Assembly (NCBI RefSeq): GCF_002356355.1
Contig: NZ_AP018052.1
Coordinates: forward strand, 2,728,001-2,792,000
DNA: 64,000 nt
Reading direction: 5' to 3'
Origin: Thiohalobacter thiocyanaticus
GTDB lineage: Bacteria; Pseudomonadota; Gammaproteobacteria; Thiohalobacterales; Thiohalobacteraceae
Part shown: in pieces, positions 8,112-30,001 of the stretch
Numbering within the stretch: the stretch's first letter is position 1
Layout: every line of letters starts with the position of its first letter
The notes under the pieces: generated by a model
Seen by the model: the letters and a program-made list of their open reading frames with translations, nothing else
Databases searched by the model: none
What the model was told of the DNA's origin: nothing
Program-made: the position numbers and the translations under genes

Positions 8112-10919
8112 ATGGACAAGACCTACAGCCCCCACGCCATCGAGCAGCGCTGGTACCAGACCTGGGAGGACAAGGGTTATTTCGCCCCCGGCGGCGAGGG
8201 CGCGCCCTTCTGCATCATGATCCCGCCGCCCAACGTCACCGGCAGCCTGCACATGGGCCACGCCTTCCAGGACACCATCATGGATGCCCTGACCCGCTTC
8301 CACCGCATGCGCGGCGACAATACCCTGTGGCAGGCCGGCTCCGACCACGCCGGCATCGCCACCCAGATGGTGGTCGAGCGTCAGCTCAACGCCGAGGGCA
8401 GGACCCGCCACGACCTGGGCCGCGAGGCCTTCATCGAACGCATCTGGGAGTGGAAGGCCGAGTCCGGCAACACCATCACCCGCCAGCTGCGGCGCATGGG
8501 CGCCTCGCTGGACTGGTCGCGCGAGCGCTTCACCATGGACGCAGGGCTGTCGGAGGCCGTGCGCGAGGTGTTTGTCCGGCTGTACGAGGACGGCCTGATC
8601 TATCGCGGCCAGCGGCTGGTGAACTGGGACCCGGTGCTGCACACCGCTGTTTCCGATCTGGAGGTCATCTCCGAGGAGGAGCAGGGCCATATGTGGCACA
8701 TGCGCTACCCGCTGGCTGACGGCTCCGGGCACGTCATCGTCGCCACCACCCGGCCGGAGACCATGCTCGGCGATACCGCCGTGGCGGTGCACCCGGAGGA
8801 CGAACGCTACCGCAACCTCATCGGCAAGACCATTTCCCTGCCGCTGACCGGGCGCGAGATCCCGGTCATCGCCGACGACTATGTCGACCCCGAGTTCGGC
8901 AGCGGCTGCGTGAAGATCACCCCGGCGCATGACTTCAACGACTACGAGGTCGGCCGCCGCCACGACCTGCCCCTGATCAACATCTTCACCGTGGATGCGG
9001 CCATCAACGCCAACGGGCCGGAGAAATACCGCGGCCTGGACCGCTACGAGGCCCGCGACGCCATCATCCATGATCTGAAGGAACTCGGCCTGCTGGAGAA
9101 GATCGACGACCACAAACTGATGGTCCCCAGAGGCGACCGCTCCGGCGTGGTCATCGAGCCCTACCTCACCGACCAGTGGTTCGTGGACCTGACCCGCGAT
9201 GAGCAGGCCGACGGCCGCCCCGGCGGCCGGGCACGCATCACCCTGCCGGCCATCGAGGCGGTGGAATCCGGCCGCATCCGCTTCGTGCCGGACAACTGGA
9301 AGAACACCTATTACGAGTGGATGCGCAACATCCAGGACTGGTGCATCTCGCGCCAGATCTGGTGGGGCCACCGCATCCCCTGCTGGTACGACGAGGCCGG
9401 CAACGGCTACGTCGCCCGCAGCGAGGAAGAGGCGCGGGAGAAGTACAAGCTCGACGCCGACGTGGCACTGGAGCAGGACAGCGACGTGCTCGACACCTGG
9501 TTCTCCTCCGCCCTGTGGCCCTTCTCCACCCTGGGCTGGCCCGGGCGGACCCAGGCGCTGCAGACCTGGTACCCGACCTCGGTGCTGGTCACCGGCTTCG
9601 ACATCATCTTCTTCTGGGTCGCGCGCATGGTGATGATGGGCCAGTACTTCATGCAGGACGTGCCCTTCCGCGAGGTCTACATCCACGGCCTGGTGCGCGA
9701 CGCCCACGGCCAGAAGATGTCCAAGTCCAAGGGCAATGTGCTTGACCCCATCGATCTGATCGACGGCATCGAACTCGACGCCCTGGTGGAAAAGCGCACC
9801 CGCGGCCTGATGCAGCCGCAGATGGCGAAAAAGATCGAGCAGCAGACCCGCCGGGACTTCCCCGACGGCATCCCCGCCTTCGGCACCGACGCCCTGCGCT
9901 TCACCTTCGCGGCGCTGGCCTCCACCGGGCGCGACATCAACTTCGACCTCGGCCGCATCGAGGGCTACCGCAACTTCTGCAACAAGCTGTGGAACGCCGC
10001 CCGCTACGTGCTGATGAACACCGAGGGTCAGGACTGCGGTCAACTGGAGGAGAAGGAAGTCGAGCTCACCGTGGCCGACCGCTGGATCCTGGCCCGGCTG
10101 CAGCAGGCCGAACAGGAGGTGATCGAGTCGATCCGCACCTACCGGCTCGACCATGCCGCCCAGGCCATCTACGAATTCACCTGGAACGAATACTGCGACT
10201 GGTATCTGGAACTGTCCAAACCGGTGCTGACCCACCCGGACAGCCCCGCCGCGCGCCAGCGCGGCACCCGCCGCACCCTGGTGCAGGTACTGGAGACCCT
10301 GCTGCGCCTGGCCCACCCGTTGATGCCCTTCATCACCGAGGAGATCTGGCAGCGGGTCGCGCCGCTGGCCGGGGTCGCCGGCGAGACCGTCATGCGCCAG
10401 CCCTTTCCGGAACCGGATGACGGCCTGGTGGACACCGCCGCCATCGAGGACATGGACTGGGTCATGCAGTTCATCCTGGGCGTGCGCAGGATCCGCTCCG
10501 GCTACGACCTCAAACCCTCCCAGCCGCTGCCGGTGGTACTGGAGAACAGCTCCGCTGCGGACCGCGCCCGACTGGAATCCAACCGTCACTACCTCGAGTT
10601 CCTGGCCCGCACCGAATCCATTACCCCGCTGGCACCGGAGGCCGAGCCGCCCGAGGCCGCCACCGCGCTGGTGGGCGAAATGAAGGTGCTGATCCCGCTT
10701 GCCGGACTCATCGACAAGGCCGCCGAACTGGAGCGACTGGCAAAGGAAATTGAGAAAAAAGAGCAGGATCTGGAGCGTGTCTCGAAAAAACTCGAGAACG
10801 GGAACTTCGTCAACAAGGCCCCCGAGGCCGTGGTGCAGAAGGAGCGCGAAAAGGCAGAAGAGACTCGAACCGCACTCGCCAACCTCATGGCACAGAAGGA
10901 AAAAATCGCCGCACTCTGA
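8112..10919 (+). CDS. valS: Valyl-tRNA synthetase
   Basis: Class I synthetase charging tRNA-Val. The 935 residues show the HIGH-type motif in [12 protein letters not shown] (about residues 38-49), the CP1 editing domain with [13 protein letters not shown] (about 213-225), the KMSKS motif in [10 protein letters not shown] (about 535-544), an anticodon-binding helical domain, and the C-terminal coiled coil (about 865-930, [18 protein letters not shown]) that is typical of ValRS. Length is normal. It is followed at once by a strong intrinsic terminator, so the pepA-holC-valS unit ends here. Confidence 0.98.
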
Positions 10920-10937
10920 GCATCGGCCAGGCCTGAC

Positions 10938-10977
10938 AACGCCGCGTCGCCCGCACCCGGGCCGCGGCGTTTTTTTA
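10938..10977 (+). terminator. Rho-independent terminator after valS
   Basis: Stem ACGCCGCG (10939-10946) pairs with CGCGGCGT (10963-10970), and the loop can add GC pairs. Seven T residues follow. It begins about 20 bases after the valS stop. Confidence 0.9.
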
Positions 10978-11039
10978 TTCAAGGATCAGCGCCTTCTGTC
11001 CGATATTTCCTCTTGCCTGTGTAAGTATCGACCTACGGG

Positions 11040-11069
11040 TTGCATTATCAATCAGATATCTCGTATTCT
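11040..11069 (+). promoter_or_regulatory. Candidate sigma-70 promoter of the HD-GYP regulator gene
   Basis: TTGCAT at 11040-11045 and TATTCT at 11064-11069 are separated by 18 AT-rich bases, in contrast to the GC-rich surroundings. The predicted transcript would have a leader of about 125 bases before the ATG at 11203. Confidence 0.45.
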
Positions 11070-11202
11070 TCACAGGCACAGGGAGGAGTACCCGCTAACA
11101 GGCGGCACAAGGAAGGAAACGCAGGTTCCCCACGGATCAGGACGCATGCAGCAAGGGGGGCGTCCGGGGAGCCCGATAACAAAAACTGGCACAGGAAACT
11201 CG

Positions 11203-12285
<1,083 letters not shown>

Positions 12286-24432: not shown

Positions 24433-25035
24433 TCAGGCGGTAGCGCGCCTGCGGGCAACCCCGACCAGCCCCAACAGGCCGGAACCGAACAGCCAGACAG
24501 CAGCGGGAACCGGCACCGGCGCCGTGGTCCCCAGCAACGAAGGCACGGCGCTGGCACCACTGATATCGAGCCTGACTCCGCTGAAGGTACCGCTGAAACC
24601 ACTCAGATCAATGGTCGCCGCATAGATACCGTAGAGGGTTTCGCCCTGCTCCGAATTATGTCCGGTATAGTTCTCGCCATCGGCAATGCTGAAACCGGCG
24701 GAACTGCCCCCGCTACTGCCCCCGAGCAGAGTGACGGTACCGGCATGACCGCCGTCGCCGACGAAAAGCACGGTGAGATCGACTTCACTGACATCGAACA
24801 TGTCGCCACCGAAGGAGACGTCAACACTGGCCGGGGCGTCATTGCTCCAGATATAGGAAGCTGCGTTTCCATCCACGATCGAACCCGTACCACTCACCGA
24901 GTTGGAATTGAAGCTGCCTGTAGAGGCGTCCAGCACATCAGCGATATCGACAAAATCGATGCCGGCCACCGTGCTCGCCGCAAAGGCCTGCTGACCAAAA
25001 CACAGCGCAAATATAATTATCAGCAATTGCTTCAT
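24433..25035 (-). CDS. PEP-CTERM (VPLPA-type) sorting domain protein
   Basis: A secreted protein of 200 residues. It has a signal peptide (MKQLLIIIFALCFGQQAFA, cut near residue 19), a glycine/serine-rich, beta-rich middle, and a C-terminal exosortase signal: VPVPAAVWLFGSGLLGL followed by VARRR. Such proteins are processed by an exosortase at the inner membrane and are linked to exopolysaccharide and biofilm matrix. No exosortase gene is in the window. A GGAGGGG ribosome-binding site precedes the ATG at 25035. It lies 110 bases after the proline-rich gene and is probably co-transcribed with it. Confidence 0.88.
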   Translation of the reverse strand: MKQLLIIIFALCFGQQAFAASTVAGIDFVDIADVLDASTGSFNSNSVSGTGSIVDGNAASYIWSNDAPASVDVSFGGDMFDVSEVDLTVLFVGDGGHAGTVTLLGGSSGGSSAGFSIADGENYTGHNSEQGETLYGIYAATIDLSGFSGTFSGVRLDISGASAVPSLLGTTAPVPVPAAVWLFGSGLLGLVGVARRRATA

Positions 25036-25145: not shown

Positions 25146-25571
25146 TCAACCCCTGGGCCCACCGGATGGCGGCGGCGCGCCGGGAGGATTCGGCACCACA
25201 ACGGGTTCGCCATCTCCCTGAGGACTCGTACGCGGATCCCCCACCGGCGGCGGCGAACCCGGCGGATTCGGCACCACCACTGGCTCCTCTATCTGCGTCG
25301 GCGGCTCATTGCCTCCACCGCCCCCGGTCGGATCGACTGCCTGGAATCGCGGCGTCAGGGTCGCGGCATCGCCGGGCCGCAATTCCACGCCGGATTCGAC
25401 CTGCACGGCCGTGAGCGCCGGCATGCCGCCAGCCGCCGGGGCCAGCACTTCCCAGCGTCCCCAGGAATACACGGAATCCTCTTCCTGCCCGGATCCGGCG
25501 GCCTGAACCGCTCCGGTCAGGGCCGGCAACAGGCCGGAACAAAGGGTGACAAGCTTCAAGTACCGCCGCAT
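25146..25571 (-). CDS. Secreted protein with a duplicated proline-rich motif
   Basis: Not recognised. 141 residues: a signal peptide (MRRYLKLVTLCSGLLPALTG, cut near VQA-AG), a short folded-looking middle (SVYSWGRWEVLAPAAGG), a Gly run, and a C-terminus with two copies of EPVVVPNPPGxPPPxG (about residues 96-111 and 124-139). The start at 25571 is chosen because GGAGG lies eight bases before it; an ATG two codons earlier is too close. A sigma-54-type promoter lies about 60 bases upstream. It may be a cell-surface or matrix protein of the same unit as the PEP-CTERM gene. Confidence 0.7.
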   Translation of the reverse strand: MRRYLKLVTLCSGLLPALTGAVQAAGSGQEEDSVYSWGRWEVLAPAAGGMPALTAVQVESGVELRPGDAATLTPRFQAVDPTGGGGGNEPPTQIEEPVVVPNPPGSPPPVGDPRTSPQGDGEPVVVPNPPGAPPPSGGPRG

Positions 25572-25628
25572 GGACATATCCTCCGGGGACCGCGGGCTGC
25601 GGTCCTGCGTGTTATCTGCCAAACATCA

Positions 25629-25837: not shown

Positions 25838-27118
25838 TCACAATTCGAAGTCCCGCCGGAATGTCAGGCTGACCTGGCTGCGGCTGTATTCGAACAGCCC
25901 CACGTTGGACCGGTTCAGTACCCGGTTGTACTCGCCGGTCATCCGCCAGTCGTCCAGCCAGCCGCGGGCGAACCGGTGGGTGAAACCGAGCACCAGCCGC
26001 CGCTCGCGTTCGTCGCGGGCCTCGCCGAAAGGCGGAAAGGTCCCGTCATAATCGAGGTTGCGCTGCACCGCACGGGCATACAGTCGGCCCCGCGGCCAGG
26101 CCCGATAGGCGGCGGCCAGCATGAACTCGGGGCCGTCATAGGTCCAGCGCGGCGCATCGGCATCGAAATCCAGGTAATGCAGACCGGCCTGCAGCGACAG
26201 GCGCCGGTTGAGGAAGAAGCGCGCCAGGGTCGCACCGAAGGCGGCATAGTCACCTTCGCGGTCCGCGTCGATGGCCTGCTCATAACGGCGGTGGCTCCAG
26301 GCGGCGTCCAGGGTGAACTCGCCGCCATCGAACTGCCAGGTCACGTAAGGCTGGAGGGTGCTGAACAGGGCGAGGTCATCGCCGCCCAGACGGATGTGAT
26401 CCAGAGTCAGGTTGAGTCCGGCCCGCCACCGCTGCAGCACCACCAGCGCCGGCCCGGTACTGAAGGTGGTCACGCCCAGGTTGAAATCGTCCTCGTCGTG
26501 ATACTCACGGTGGTACAGGGACAGTTGCGATTGCCACAGCAGGCTGGCCACCTGCTCGCCCAGGTCGAGACGTACACCGGGATTGTAGGTGTGGCTGAGA
26601 CCGGGCTGCAGGAACAGGGCATTATTGCTGCGTTCGGTCGCCCCGGGCAGCAGGCGGATGTTGTCCGCCAGGAGCTCCGAAGACGGGCCCACATTGACAT
26701 TGGAGTCGTGCATTGCGCCGAAGGCGAGCGAGGCGCGCCAGGTATGGCGTCGATTGAAGCGGGCGCGGTCGGCCGCAACCTGGGCCAGGAAGGCAGTAAT
26801 GGTCACGCGCACCTGGGGCGGCGTCGCCGGATCCTCCAGTACCTGGCGGGCCAGTTCCTCCGCCTGCTGGTAATCGAGCATGCGGTAGTAGGCCACGGCC
26901 AGTTCCAGGCGGGCACGATGCAGCGTGGGCTCGATACTGAGGATGGTCTGAAAGGCCTCACGCGCACTCTGCAGTCGCTCGTCCTCCAATGCCTGCATAC
27001 CTTCCTGGAACAGGGCCTCGACATCCGTCTCCTGCGCCGCCCCCGGCGGCATGAAACCCAGCTGGCCTGCCAGCAGCAGTAATCCTGCCCGCACAGCGGT
27101 GCAGCCGCGCATCCCCAT
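25838..27118 (-). CDS. Exported TPR protein with C-terminal outer-membrane beta-barrel (Slam/DUF560-like)
   Basis: 426 residues. A signal peptide (about 1-29, cut near GAA-QET) is followed by tetratricopeptide-like helices (about 30-135: LFQEGMQALEDERLQSAREAF, LARLELAVAYYRMLDYQQAEELA). The rest is strand-rich with alternating hydrophobic residues and ends SQVSLTFRRDFEL, a terminal aromatic/leucine strand typical of outer-membrane barrels. This order, periplasmic TPR then barrel, is that of surface-lipoprotein assembly modulators (Slam, DUF560). It may help export or anchor a surface protein. It is divergent from the LapG-like protease gene, 180 bases away. Confidence 0.75.
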   Translation of the reverse strand: MGMRGCTAVRAGLLLLAGQLGFMPPGAAQETDVEALFQEGMQALEDERLQSAREAFQTILSIEPTLHRARLELAVAYYRMLDYQQAEELARQVLEDPATPPQVRVTITAFLAQVAADRARFNRRHTWRASLAFGAMHDSNVNVGPSSELLADNIRLLPGATERSNNALFLQPGLSHTYNPGVRLDLGEQVASLLWQSQLSLYHREYHDEDDFNLGVTTFSTGPALVVLQRWRAGLNLTLDHIRLGGDDLALFSTLQPYVTWQFDGGEFTLDAAWSHRRYEQAIDADREGDYAAFGATLARFFLNRRLSLQAGLHYLDFDADAPRWTYDGPEFMLAAAYRAWPRGRLYARAVQRNLDYDGTFPPFGEARDERERRLVLGFTHRFARGWLDDWRMTGEYNRVLNRSNVGLFEYSRSQVSLTFRRDFEL

Positions 27119-27298
27119 ATCGCCTCCCCAATGCTTGTTCCGCTGGAGCCGCAGCCGGACGGCTGCGCAAAAGTCCGCCGATGTTACTGGAAAAATGCCC
27201 GCCCATACAATCCGGGCCGCCGGATGGCATTGGCGTACATGCTGTTGAACTGATAGGCTTGTATCTTGTTTTGCCCAGCAATTACAGACAGATATCCC

Positions 27299-27928
27299 AT
27301 GCCGCGCCATATCCTTCCGAGTCTTCTGCTGCTGTTGTGCCTGCCGGCTGCAGCATCCGGCACGGGGCTGTTCGGCTACCGGGAAGTGCCGCAGGCGGAC
27401 GTCAGCCAGTTCGGACAGTGGGTCAGTGTGATGGAGCGGCATCTGCTGCAGGACCGGCCCGAGACGGAGGATTGCGGCAGTCCCGCGTTCAACGCCTGTC
27501 ACCTGCATGAATGGCGGGAATTCCTGGCATCGCTGCGCGACCTGCCGCGCGCCGAACAGATCAGCGCCGTCAACCGCTATGCCAACCGCAAGGACTATGT
27601 ACTCGACATCGACAACTACGGGGTGGAGGACTACTGGGCGATCGCGCGCGAGTTTCTGGCCAATCACGGCGACTGCGAGGACTACGCCCTGACCAAACTG
27701 TTCTCGCTCAAATGGCTGGGCTGGCCGGTGGAACGGATGCGCCTGGTGATCCTGCAGGACACCAATCTGCGTGTCCCCCATGCCGTACTGGCGGTGTATC
27801 AGGACGAGCGCATTCTCATTCTCGACAATCAGATCGACCAGGTGGTGGACCATCGCAGCATCGTGCACTACGTGCCGGTCTACTCCATCAACGAAACCGG
27901 CTGGTGGCTGTACTCGCCCGCCGGCTGA
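27299..27928 (+). CDS. Periplasmic transglutaminase-like cysteine protease (BTLCP / LapG family)
   Basis: 209 residues with a signal peptide (MPRHILPSLLLLLCLPAAAS). The catalytic triad is clear: Cys126 in NHGDCEDYALTK, His161 in VPHAVLAV, and Asp176 in ILDNQID. The acidic residues beside the cysteine (D125, E127, D128) match the Ca2+ site of LapG. LapG cuts large adhesins near their N-terminus so that they leave the cell surface, under control of the cyclic-di-GMP receptor LapD. Here the next gene, 15 bases downstream, is not a GGDEF-EAL LapD but a membrane HD-GYP protein. No large adhesin is in the window. Confidence 0.9.
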   Translation: MPRHILPSLLLLLCLPAAASGTGLFGYREVPQADVSQFGQWVSVMERHLLQDRPETEDCGSPAFNACHLHEWREFLASLRDLPRAEQISAVNRYANRKDYVLDIDNYGVEDYWAIAREFLANHGDCEDYALTKLFSLKWLGWPVERMRLVILQDTNLRVPHAVLAVYQDERILILDNQIDQVVDHRSIVHYVPVYSINETGWWLYSPAG

Positions 27929-27943
27929 CATGGGGACGAACAC

Positions 27944-30001
27944 TTGTTCAAGGCATTGAAACACCCGCTCTGGCTGGGGCTGGGCGTCCTGACCCTGATC
28001 ATAGCCATCGGTCTGGTGCTGATCTTCCAGTATCTCGCGCTCGAGCAGCAGCGGGATCTGCGCCAGTGGCAGCTGCGCCTGGGCGTGGTGGCCGAAACCC
28101 GCGCCGAGACCGTCGACGGCTGGCTGGGTGAGCGTTTCGCCGATCTGGAGGAACTGGCCGGCAACGCCTCGCTGCAGATGTATCTGACCCAGGTCGGCAC
28201 GGCCGAGGGCGAGACCGAGGCACGGCAGGCCACGCTGGGTTATCTGCGCAATCTGATCCTGGCCGCGGCCCAGCGCAGCGGCTTCCAGGGCAAATCCCCG
28301 GGGGGCAACATCCCCGCCAACCTGCCGCGCAGCGGGCACGCCGGCCTGGCGCTGTACGATCGCAGCGGACAGACACTGGTGAGCACCCCGCACATGCCCG
28401 CCGCCGATGACCGGACCCGGGAACAGATCGAGGCGGTGCTTGCCAGCGGTGAACGCCGGCTGCAGGACATCTTCCTGGGGGCGGACCGGCATGCCCTGGT
28501 CGGCTTCGCCGTGCCGGTGTTCGCCGTCCAGGGCATGGAAGCGGCCCGCCAGCCACACCCGGTCGGCGTGCTATATGGCGTGCGCGACGCCGAAGCCGAA
28601 CTCTTCCCCCTGCTGGCGTCACGGGAACCGCAGGCGCAGGGCGAGACCCTGCTGGTCGCCGAGCAGGACGGCCTGGCCGTCTATCTCTCGCCCCTGCGTG
28701 ACGACACCCCGCCCACCCAGCGCCGCCTGACCCTGCAGATCCAGCAGCTCGCCGCGACCGAGGCGCTGCACGCGCCCGGCGAATTCCGCCGGGTGCCGGA
28801 CTATCGCGGCGAGGAGGTACTCATGACCAGCCGCGCCCTGGAGCACGCGCCCTGGGTCATGCTGCACAAGGTCGACGCCGACACCGCCCTGAGCGAGTCA
28901 CGCGAACATCGCCGCTTCCTGCTGAGCGTATTTCTGCTGACCCTGTTCCTGGTCAGCGCCGCCCTGGTGGCGGCCTGGCGGCACGGCACCAGCCTGCGCG
29001 CCCAGCGCATGGCCGCCGAGCTGGCCGCACGGCGGCGGGAGCTGGAGGAACAGGGCCGGCTGCTGCATGCGGTGACCGACAATGTCACCGATTTCCTGTT
29101 CCTGCTCGATCCGGAACTGAAATTCCTGTTCGCCAACCGGCCGCTGGCCAATACCATGGCGATCCCGGTCGAGGACATCCCGGGCAAAAGCCTGGCCAGC
29201 GTGCTGGGTACCGACATGGCCGGGGCCCTGAGTGGATTTCTGCAGTCACGCACCGACAACCCGGCCAGCCGCCTGCTGGACCTGCAGATCGCCGGGCACC
29301 AGCGCCGATTCGAATGCCGGGTGCTGGAGTTGCCGGAGCGGGCCGGACTGGAACGCACCACGCTGGTGGTCCTGCATGACGTCACTGCCCTGCACCGGGC
29401 CCAGCAACAGCGGGCACAGACCCTGCAGCAGACCATCCAGGCGTTGATGCGCGCGGTGGATACCCACGATCCCCACTCCGCCGATCACTCCGCCCGCACC
29501 GCGGCGGTGACAGCTGCCGTCGCCCGGGCGATGCAACTGCCCGAGGAGGAGCGGCGGGCCCTGGACATGGCAGCGAATCTCGCCAACGTGGGCAAGATCT
29601 TCCTGCCCAGGGAAATCCTGACCAAGACCGGCCCCCTGAGCGAGGCGGAACAGGCACAGCTCAGGCAGCACGTGCAGTATTCACTGGATATCCTGTCGAA
29701 CCTGGAATTCGACGGCCCGGTGCTGGAGATCATCGCCCAGAAACAGGAGCACCTGGACGGCTCAGGCTATCCCAACGGGTTGCAGGGGGAGCAGATCCGC
29801 CTCAGCGCCCGCATCCTGGCCGTGGCCAACGCCTTTGTCGCCCTGGTCAGTCCCCGCGCCTGGCGCGAACGGCTGACACCGGAAGCCGCGCTGGACCAGT
29901 TATTGAAAGGCGCCGGCAGCAGCTACGACCGCCAGGTGATCGCGGCCCTGTTTCACGTGGTGGAAAACGACGAGGCCCTGGAGGCAGCGCCAGGGGAGTG
30001 A
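27944..30001 (+). CDS. Membrane sensor protein with PAS and degenerate HD-GYP domain
   Basis: 685 residues: TM1 (about 8-30), a large periplasmic sensor of dCache-like layout (31-323, with LALYDRSGQTLVSTP), TM2 (324-345), a coiled linker, PAS (about 372-490) and a HD-GYP domain (about 495-675). The HD-GYP domain is recognisable (EHLDGSGYPNGLQGEQI at 602-618) but the metal ligands are changed: HD is AN (547-548, LANVGKI), the HH of HHE is KQ (600-601), and the later Asp is Asn629. It should bind rather than cleave cyclic di-GMP, if it binds at all. The start is a TTG at 27944 after GGGG. It is directly behind the LapG-like protease gene. Confidence 0.88.
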   Translation: MFKALKHPLWLGLGVLTLIIAIGLVLIFQYLALEQQRDLRQWQLRLGVVAETRAETVDGWLGERFADLEELAGNASLQMYLTQVGTAEGETEARQATLGYLRNLILAAAQRSGFQGKSPGGNIPANLPRSGHAGLALYDRSGQTLVSTPHMPAADDRTREQIEAVLASGERRLQDIFLGADRHALVGFAVPVFAVQGMEAARQPHPVGVLYGVRDAEAELFPLLASREPQAQGETLLVAEQDGLAVYLSPLRDDTPPTQRRLTLQIQQLAATEALHAPGEFRRVPDYRGEEVLMTSRALEHAPWVMLHKVDADTALSESREHRRFLLSVFLLTLFLVSAALVAAWRHGTSLRAQRMAAELAARRRELEEQGRLLHAVTDNVTDFLFLLDPELKFLFANRPLANTMAIPVEDIPGKSLASVLGTDMAGALSGFLQSRTDNPASRLLDLQIAGHQRRFECRVLELPERAGLERTTLVVLHDVTALHRAQQQRAQTLQQTIQALMRAVDTHDPHSADHSARTAAVTAAVARAMQLPEEERRALDMAANLANVGKIFLPREILTKTGPLSEAEQAQLRQHVQYSLDILSNLEFDGPVLEIIAQKQEHLDGSGYPNGLQGEQIRLSARILAVANAFVALVSPRAWRERLTPEAALDQLLKGAGSSYDRQVIAALFHVVENDEALEAAPGE

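Follow-up and report, generated by a model that had tools for sequence, protein, structure and literature searches.

What controls a LapG-like periplasmic protease, and what does it cut, when its adjoining gene encodes a membrane protein with a catalytically dead HD-GYP domain? The question is raised by a two-gene locus (positions 27299–30001) in a 64,000-nucleotide stretch of contig NZ_AP018052.1, here called the window, whose genome (complete, one contig, 3.23 Mb) was examined by family and profile searches. The first gene (27299..27928, + strand) encodes a cysteine protease of the BTLCP (C93) type with a signal peptide (209 residues). The second (27944..30001, + strand) encodes a 685-residue receptor and starts with TTG exactly 15 bases 3′ of the protease stop codon, the spacing given in an earlier note on this DNA, which saw in the receptor a possible analogue of LapD. 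As judged from sequence and predicted structure, the two proteins belong to the DvhG/DvhD type, and we put at roughly two in three the probability that they form a switch whose main substrate is a neighbouring secreted protein, exported by an outer-membrane barrel resembling Slam and the type XI secretion system (T11SS).

The protease scores 68.8 bits against the Pfam family Peptidase_C93/BTLCP (cut-off 27), and its closest chains in the PDB are the LapG structures 4u65 and 4fgo. The NCBIfam equivalog model of LapG returns 86.9 bits, far below its cut-off of 320, so that the protein is classed as LapG-like, not as LapG proper. The catalytic triad (C126, H161 and D176) as well as D125, E127 and D128 are invariant among 11 protease relatives, which bears out the intact Cys-His-Asp triad and Ca2+-site residues that had been read from the sequence. 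A BTLCP fold, this triad and a Ca site flanking the Cys (D125-C126-E127) are likewise the hallmarks of DvhG of Desulfovibrio vulgaris, whose cleavage of adhesins at [T/A/P]AAG depends on Ca (Font et al. 2026, PMC13090378). The genome contains this one C93 protease.

The receptor matches the Pfam families HD_5 (152 bits) and PAS_4 (28.8 bits). Its AlphaFold2 model (mean pLDDT 89.1) shows two transmembrane helices flanking a large two-lobed periplasmic domain, followed by a PAS domain, a stalk and the HD-GYP domain, in agreement with the architecture proposed earlier. The periplasmic domain is dCache-like (about residues 31–322; 28034..28909), the PAS domain occupies residues 379–485 (29078..29398) and the degenerate HD-GYP domain residues 500–675 approximately (29441..29968), all on the + strand. 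The HD-GYP domain has lost the metal ligands expected of an active phosphodiesterase: A547 and N548 replace the HD pair, K600 and Q601 replace HH, and N629 replaces the equivalent of D305. These five changes had all been listed correctly, and H511, at the position of E185 of PmGH, adds a sixth. The DGSGYP loop is intact, again as noted before. In the c-di-GMP (cyclic di-GMP) site defined for DvhD, P555, L565, Y609, R638 and R641 are kept, L634 and W640 are conservative replacements, and H511 and Q570 differ. The same pattern extends across 82 receptor homologues, none of which has an intact HD: its Asp is Asn in all 82, the D305 equivalent is Asn in 81 of 81, and the equivalents of the DvhD nucleotide contacts L577, R650, R653 and P567 are conserved in 80–82 of the 82. 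This set is biased because its retrieval patterns include N548 or N629; in an unbiased set, taken from the loci of the ten nearest protease neighbours and fetched by protease search, the receptor is degenerate in 10 of 10. Neither set thus contains an orthologous pair with intact HD ligands, the finding that had been named as fatal to the proposal.

Sequence and model both single out DvhD as the closest known structure. The top PDB match by sequence is 9rc0, a structure of the DvhD PAS and HD-GYP domains (7.5e-47 with a single sequence, 4.4e-80 with a family profile), with 9rbz second, and the three DvhD structures (9rc0, 9rbz and 9rc2) are the best Foldseek matches of the receptor model. The best match to its periplasmic domain is 9rc2, the periplasmic domain of DvhD (E 5.6e-10, TMt 0.78). 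Since DvhD structures are the best receptor matches by sequence and by model, in the model with the dCache domain included, the pair is assigned to the DvhD type; homologous PAS and HD-GYP domains, a dCache domain between two transmembrane helices and the loss of the HD and HH ligands are all present. The receptor is 81% identical to its counterpart in the nearest named relative, Thiohalobacter thiocyanaticus. In DvhD, HD has become SQ and the double His Met-Asn, and the periplasmic domain is a dCache domain; the protein binds c-di-GMP at about 0.1 micromolar without hydrolysing it and acts inside-out in cells (PMC13090378). Control of DvhG that depends on c-di-GMP goes back to an earlier reconstitution, as recounted in the same article. 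The view of a dead HD-GYP protein as a LapD analogue therefore stands as far as homology to DvhD carries it. It is not a novel one, since accounts for Desulfovibrio appeared in 2024 and 2026 (PMC13090378), and the further idea of trapping in the manner of LapG is not established even for DvhD.

Chance does not account for the pairing. All ten of the closest protease relatives in the class sample are followed by the same degenerate receptor, as the earlier note had suggested looking for, and no HD-GYP neighbour of the receptor family was seen at the other C93 loci examined. In a protease tree, 81 receptor-paired proteases split cleanly from 30 LapD-type ones (support 1.0, a single change). A true LapD had also been sought: the LapD_MoxY_N periplasmic domain is absent from the receptor and from the genome of the window by a search that covered 22 genomes and was positive in 13 of them, so the objection that a canonical lapD might lie elsewhere falls away. 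Nine of 11 genomes with the pair (that of the window and eight others) lack this domain. All 11 genomes whose only C93 protease is of the conventional kind have it, inside or adjoining the C93 locus. One genome (G216) holds both systems on separate contigs, the protease with a DvhD-type receptor (L039) and LapG with LapD (L068), and another (G210) has one LapD_MoxY_N match, in a 254-residue frame, its C93 gene being on a different contig. The pair persists in Alphaproteobacteria in other orientations. At nine loci there (L123, L125, L130, L131, L135, L136, L138, L139 and L149), at most of which protease and receptor are divergent, it adjoins a large open reading frame (ORF) belonging to one cluster; the one scanned, at L138, is an RTX adhesin (HemolysinCabind, laminin-G) in the classical arrangement.

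Clustering of neighbouring genes gave as the commonest companion of the pair (54 loci) the gene that in the window occupies 25838..27118 on the − strand. It is divergent from the protease gene across an intergenic region of 180 bp (27119..27298), an arrangement that is conserved. Its product is predicted to be an outer-membrane protein: the AlphaFold2 model (pLDDT 87.8) shows N-terminal helical repeats of the tetratricopeptide (TPR) kind and 14 long strands, the combination of N-terminal TPR and 14-stranded barrel that characterizes Slam and T11SS proteins, T11SS barrels being described as having 14 strands (PMC8406197). It scores 21.5 bits with TPR_Slam (cut-off 35.2). Foldseek gives the best TMt to the 14-strand barrels OmpG and CymA; the PDB matches listed include no Slam structure. 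The genome encodes a second TPR-barrel (L002, G000:C1:2630554-2633727), which is followed by a 592-residue FecR-domain protein, and cargos of the FecR type recur beside barrel paralogues.

The candidate substrate (25146..25577, − strand), which like the barrel gene lies outside the positions treated in the earlier note, is a small secreted protein of 143 residues in which a signal peptide is followed by DSVYSWGRWEVLAPAAG and a Pro-rich tail. Closely behind the signal peptide stands the motif EEDSVYSWGRWEVLAPAAGG, with the core D-S-V-Y-S-W-G-R-W-E-V-L-A-P-A-A-G (25428..25478, − strand), whose PAAG (25428–25439) fits the LapG/DvhG cleavage consensus [T/A/P]AAG (PMC13090378). The general pattern, [D/E]-S-[VAI]-x-x-W-G-x-W-x(4,5)-P-A-A-G, was observed in 47 ORFs as against 0.25 in composition shuffles. 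Ser, Trp-Gly and Trp are identical in 47 of 47, the search pattern itself having fixed the Trp residues and AAG. Of 48 barrel loci that could be tested, 43 have the motif immediately downstream of the barrel gene; in four of the remaining five, either a variant (PSAG, PAAM or PAGG) is present or the gene lies at a greater distance. A motif profile matches 8 of 276 class genomes (E 1e-11 to 1e-15), with a single match in each, and these are exactly the genomes that have both pair and barrel; seven of the eight had contributed to the profile, and G220, which had not, is nevertheless found at E 3.2e-13. No probability is attached to this co-occurrence because related genomes are not independent. 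In four longer cargos (at L077, L039, L095 and L090) the score for TbpB_B_D, the barrel found in Slam cargos, exceeds the cut-off. Most cargos lack a lipobox after the signal peptide, although one (L102) looks lipoprotein-like, so another anchor would be needed, and the WGxW segment could serve. A VPLPA-CTERM (PEP-CTERM) protein follows the candidate substrate (24433..25035, − strand), as it does beside the short motif proteins of many relatives. At L077 and L151 (Sulfuricella sp. T08 and a related metagenome-assembled genome) two complete protease–receptor pairs flank one barrel and cargo. A metagenome-assembled genome labelled Desulfocapsa (L087) holds a pair together with barrel and PAAG cargo, all of the Gammaproteobacterial type, which may reflect transfer or a binning error.

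Two natural controls bear on the parts of this motif. At L066 (7830–12240) a barrel of the same family adjoins LapG and LapD, both canonical (the latter with LapD_MoxY_N, HAMP, GGDEF and EAL), and its small cargo reads DSVYQWGHW followed by KKIAEGADPSDVTEAPEAG, a DP...EAG site that resembles the LapA cleavage site QQAIAAGVDPTTALESTAAG (Table 2, PMC3032553). The complete genome G031 lacks C93 but encodes a close barrel, whose FecR-type cargo reads SPYSWGPWTVTDIANP, with SWGPW and without PAAG. Taken together, the two cargos suggest that WGxW goes with the barrel and that the Ala-Ala-Gly or LapA-like site goes with the protease. From L066 the type of receptor seems to be exchangeable; a search for further loci with LapD and barrel in the order of G142 gave one match among three genomes, G142 itself.

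These observations are consistent with the following mechanism. At high cytoplasmic concentration, c-di-GMP would be bound by the dead HD-GYP domain, and a shift of the stalk, transmembrane helices and dCache-like domain would keep the periplasmic protease inactive; a drop in c-di-GMP would free it. The Slam/T11SS-like barrel would bring the cargo to the outer membrane or across it, and the cargo would be anchored by its N-terminal WGxW segment at the periplasmic side of that barrel. A cut at PAAG would part this segment from the exposed portion, which would be released. That the c-di-GMP-gated protease governs how the exporter's cargo is retained at the surface, through the N-terminal WGxW-PAAG segment, is, by a narrow balance, the probable version of events.

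Several points count against this mechanism. Even the best barrel relative stays below the family thresholds (TPR_Slam 33.9 against 35.2, SlipAM 19.2 against 22), and no TbpB barrel is recognisable in the mostly Pro-rich cargo of the window. With only about 10 residues ahead of the motif, the mature cargo lacks a folded retention domain such as LapA and DvhA have. Three genomes with the pair (G173, G052 and G270; L040–L042) lack both a close barrel and a nearby PAAG motif. The system might instead be an ordinary DvhG/DvhD one that acts on a large unlinked adhesin, with the barrel and the small protein merely co-inherited. Large RTX adhesins are indeed the substrates in Desulfovibrio (PMC13090378), an RTX adhesin stands beside Alphaproteobacterial pairs, and the genome of the window has one LssB-like ABC transporter, at a type I secretion system (T1SS) locus (L184), with a 1444-residue neighbour. 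We nonetheless hold this to be unlikely: the 1444-residue protein was rejected as it has no N-terminal site, its sole [T/A/P]AAG being at the C-terminus, and the large repeat adhesin with an N-terminal site that the earlier note expected did not materialize, the retention_LapA model (NF033682) giving only a weak, FecR-type match. A LapA-type adhesin, with giant repeats, retention module and T1SS, is not what the locus offers, the linked candidate having 143 residues; motif, barrel and pair, on the other hand, occur jointly in 8 of 276 genomes. It is rather improbable that the WGxW...PAAG segment is as a whole an export or docking signal for the barrel and no protease site. Its place close behind the signal peptide would suit such a signal. 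WGxW is also found, with no C93 gene adjoining, in the FecR cargos that accompany barrel paralogues, so this half of the motif may have nothing to do with the protease, and one paralogue cargo (L223, FecR type) reads WGRWNAAAG in a genome without C93, a weak counterexample to the assignment of the Ala-Ala-Gly site to the protease. Against such a signal, PAAG is missing from the cargo of G031, where the barrel is close and the genome has no C93, and L066, under LapD-type control, keeps WGHW with a LapA-like DP...EAG site in place of PAAG.

The remaining alternatives concern the single components. That the receptor is an outside-in sensor, in which a dCache ligand regulates a cytoplasmic partner while the protease is controlled otherwise, draws on the usual role of dCache domains as small-molecule sensors and on additional matches of the model to the chemoreceptor domains CtaA, PctA and McpH; we think it highly doubtful, as a periplasmic protease, and no cytoplasmic output gene, is conserved beside the receptor and DvhD works in the opposite direction. 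Still a little more doubtful is an exopolysaccharide porin like PelB, BcsC or PgaA with the small protein as a matrix accessory: PelBC and BcsC are among the Foldseek matches listed, but 14 strands with a short TPR recall T11SS and not the 16-stranded PgaA, the best TMt values are those to OmpG and CymA, and Slam families are matched, if below threshold, with TbpB_B_D in cargos. Finally, membership of the HD-GYP family and the intact GYP loop could speak for an active phosphodiesterase, which is scarcely credible given six altered metal-ligand positions, the absence of an intact HD in 82 homologues and the inactivity of DvhD, which has comparable losses (PMC13090378). The window encodes elsewhere (10693–12282) a second HD-GYP protein whose HD and GYP motifs are intact and which is likely, from these motifs, to be an active phosphodiesterase.

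Receptor and protease add members from other classes to a type already published; the DvhD receptor type, described from sulfate reducers, now reaches into the Gamma-, Beta- and Alphaproteobacteria. Gammaproteobacterial pairs may already be included in the class distribution of DvhDG (PMC13090378, Fig. 9b). Coupling of a Slam/T11SS-like exporter to a LapG-type cargo site was not found in the literature searched, subscription papers lying outside its scope, and two T11SS surveys make no mention of LapG, HD-GYP or c-di-GMP. If the proposed switch is correct, it would bring a third export route under LapG-type proteolytic control, after T1SS and two-partner secretion, and c-di-GMP-controlled shedding of surface proteins would not be confined to giant T1SS adhesins. 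In Gamma- and Betaproteobacteria, among them many sulfur bacteria, the same protease would then have been coupled to a Slam-like exporter with small cargos, its receptor being of the LapD or the DvhD type, two kinds unrelated to each other, and T11SS, whose cargos and regulation are little understood, would gain a testable regulator and substrate motif.

Several known systems resemble the locus in part. As in DvhG/DvhD of Desulfovibrio vulgaris, a BTLCP protease adjoins a dCache-PAS-HD-GYP receptor that has lost its metal ligands and kept c-di-GMP contacts, although Y652 and Y523 of DvhD correspond to W640 and H511; DvhG/DvhD comes from Desulfovibrio, whereas pairs of the window type occur in other bacterial classes, and that of the window has, in place of an adjoining T1SS or giant adhesin, a TPR-barrel and a small PAAG cargo. 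With LapG/LapD/LapA of Pseudomonas fluorescens it has in common the logic, the protease fold and the [T/A/P]AAG consensus. LapD, however, is built as LapD_MoxY-HAMP-GGDEF-EAL, unlike the dCache-PAS-HD-GYP receptor, and LapA, unlike the small candidate cargo, is a giant adhesin that uses T1SS and possesses a retention module. PmGH and other HD-GYP phosphodiesterases share the fold and GYP loop of the receptor but have the metal-ligand residues that it lacks. Slam and T11SS resemble the neighbouring genes in placing a TPR and 14-strand barrel beside cargos with signal peptides, some with TbpB_B_D barrels, and differ in that here family scores are sub-threshold, cargos are mostly not lipoproteins and an N-terminal WGxW-PAAG is present. 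CdrA/CdrB with LapG in P. aeruginosa offers a precedent for LapG-type control of a protein outside T1SS, as proposed here, CdrB being a two-partner (type Vb) transporter where the putative exporter of the window is a TPR and 14-strand barrel.

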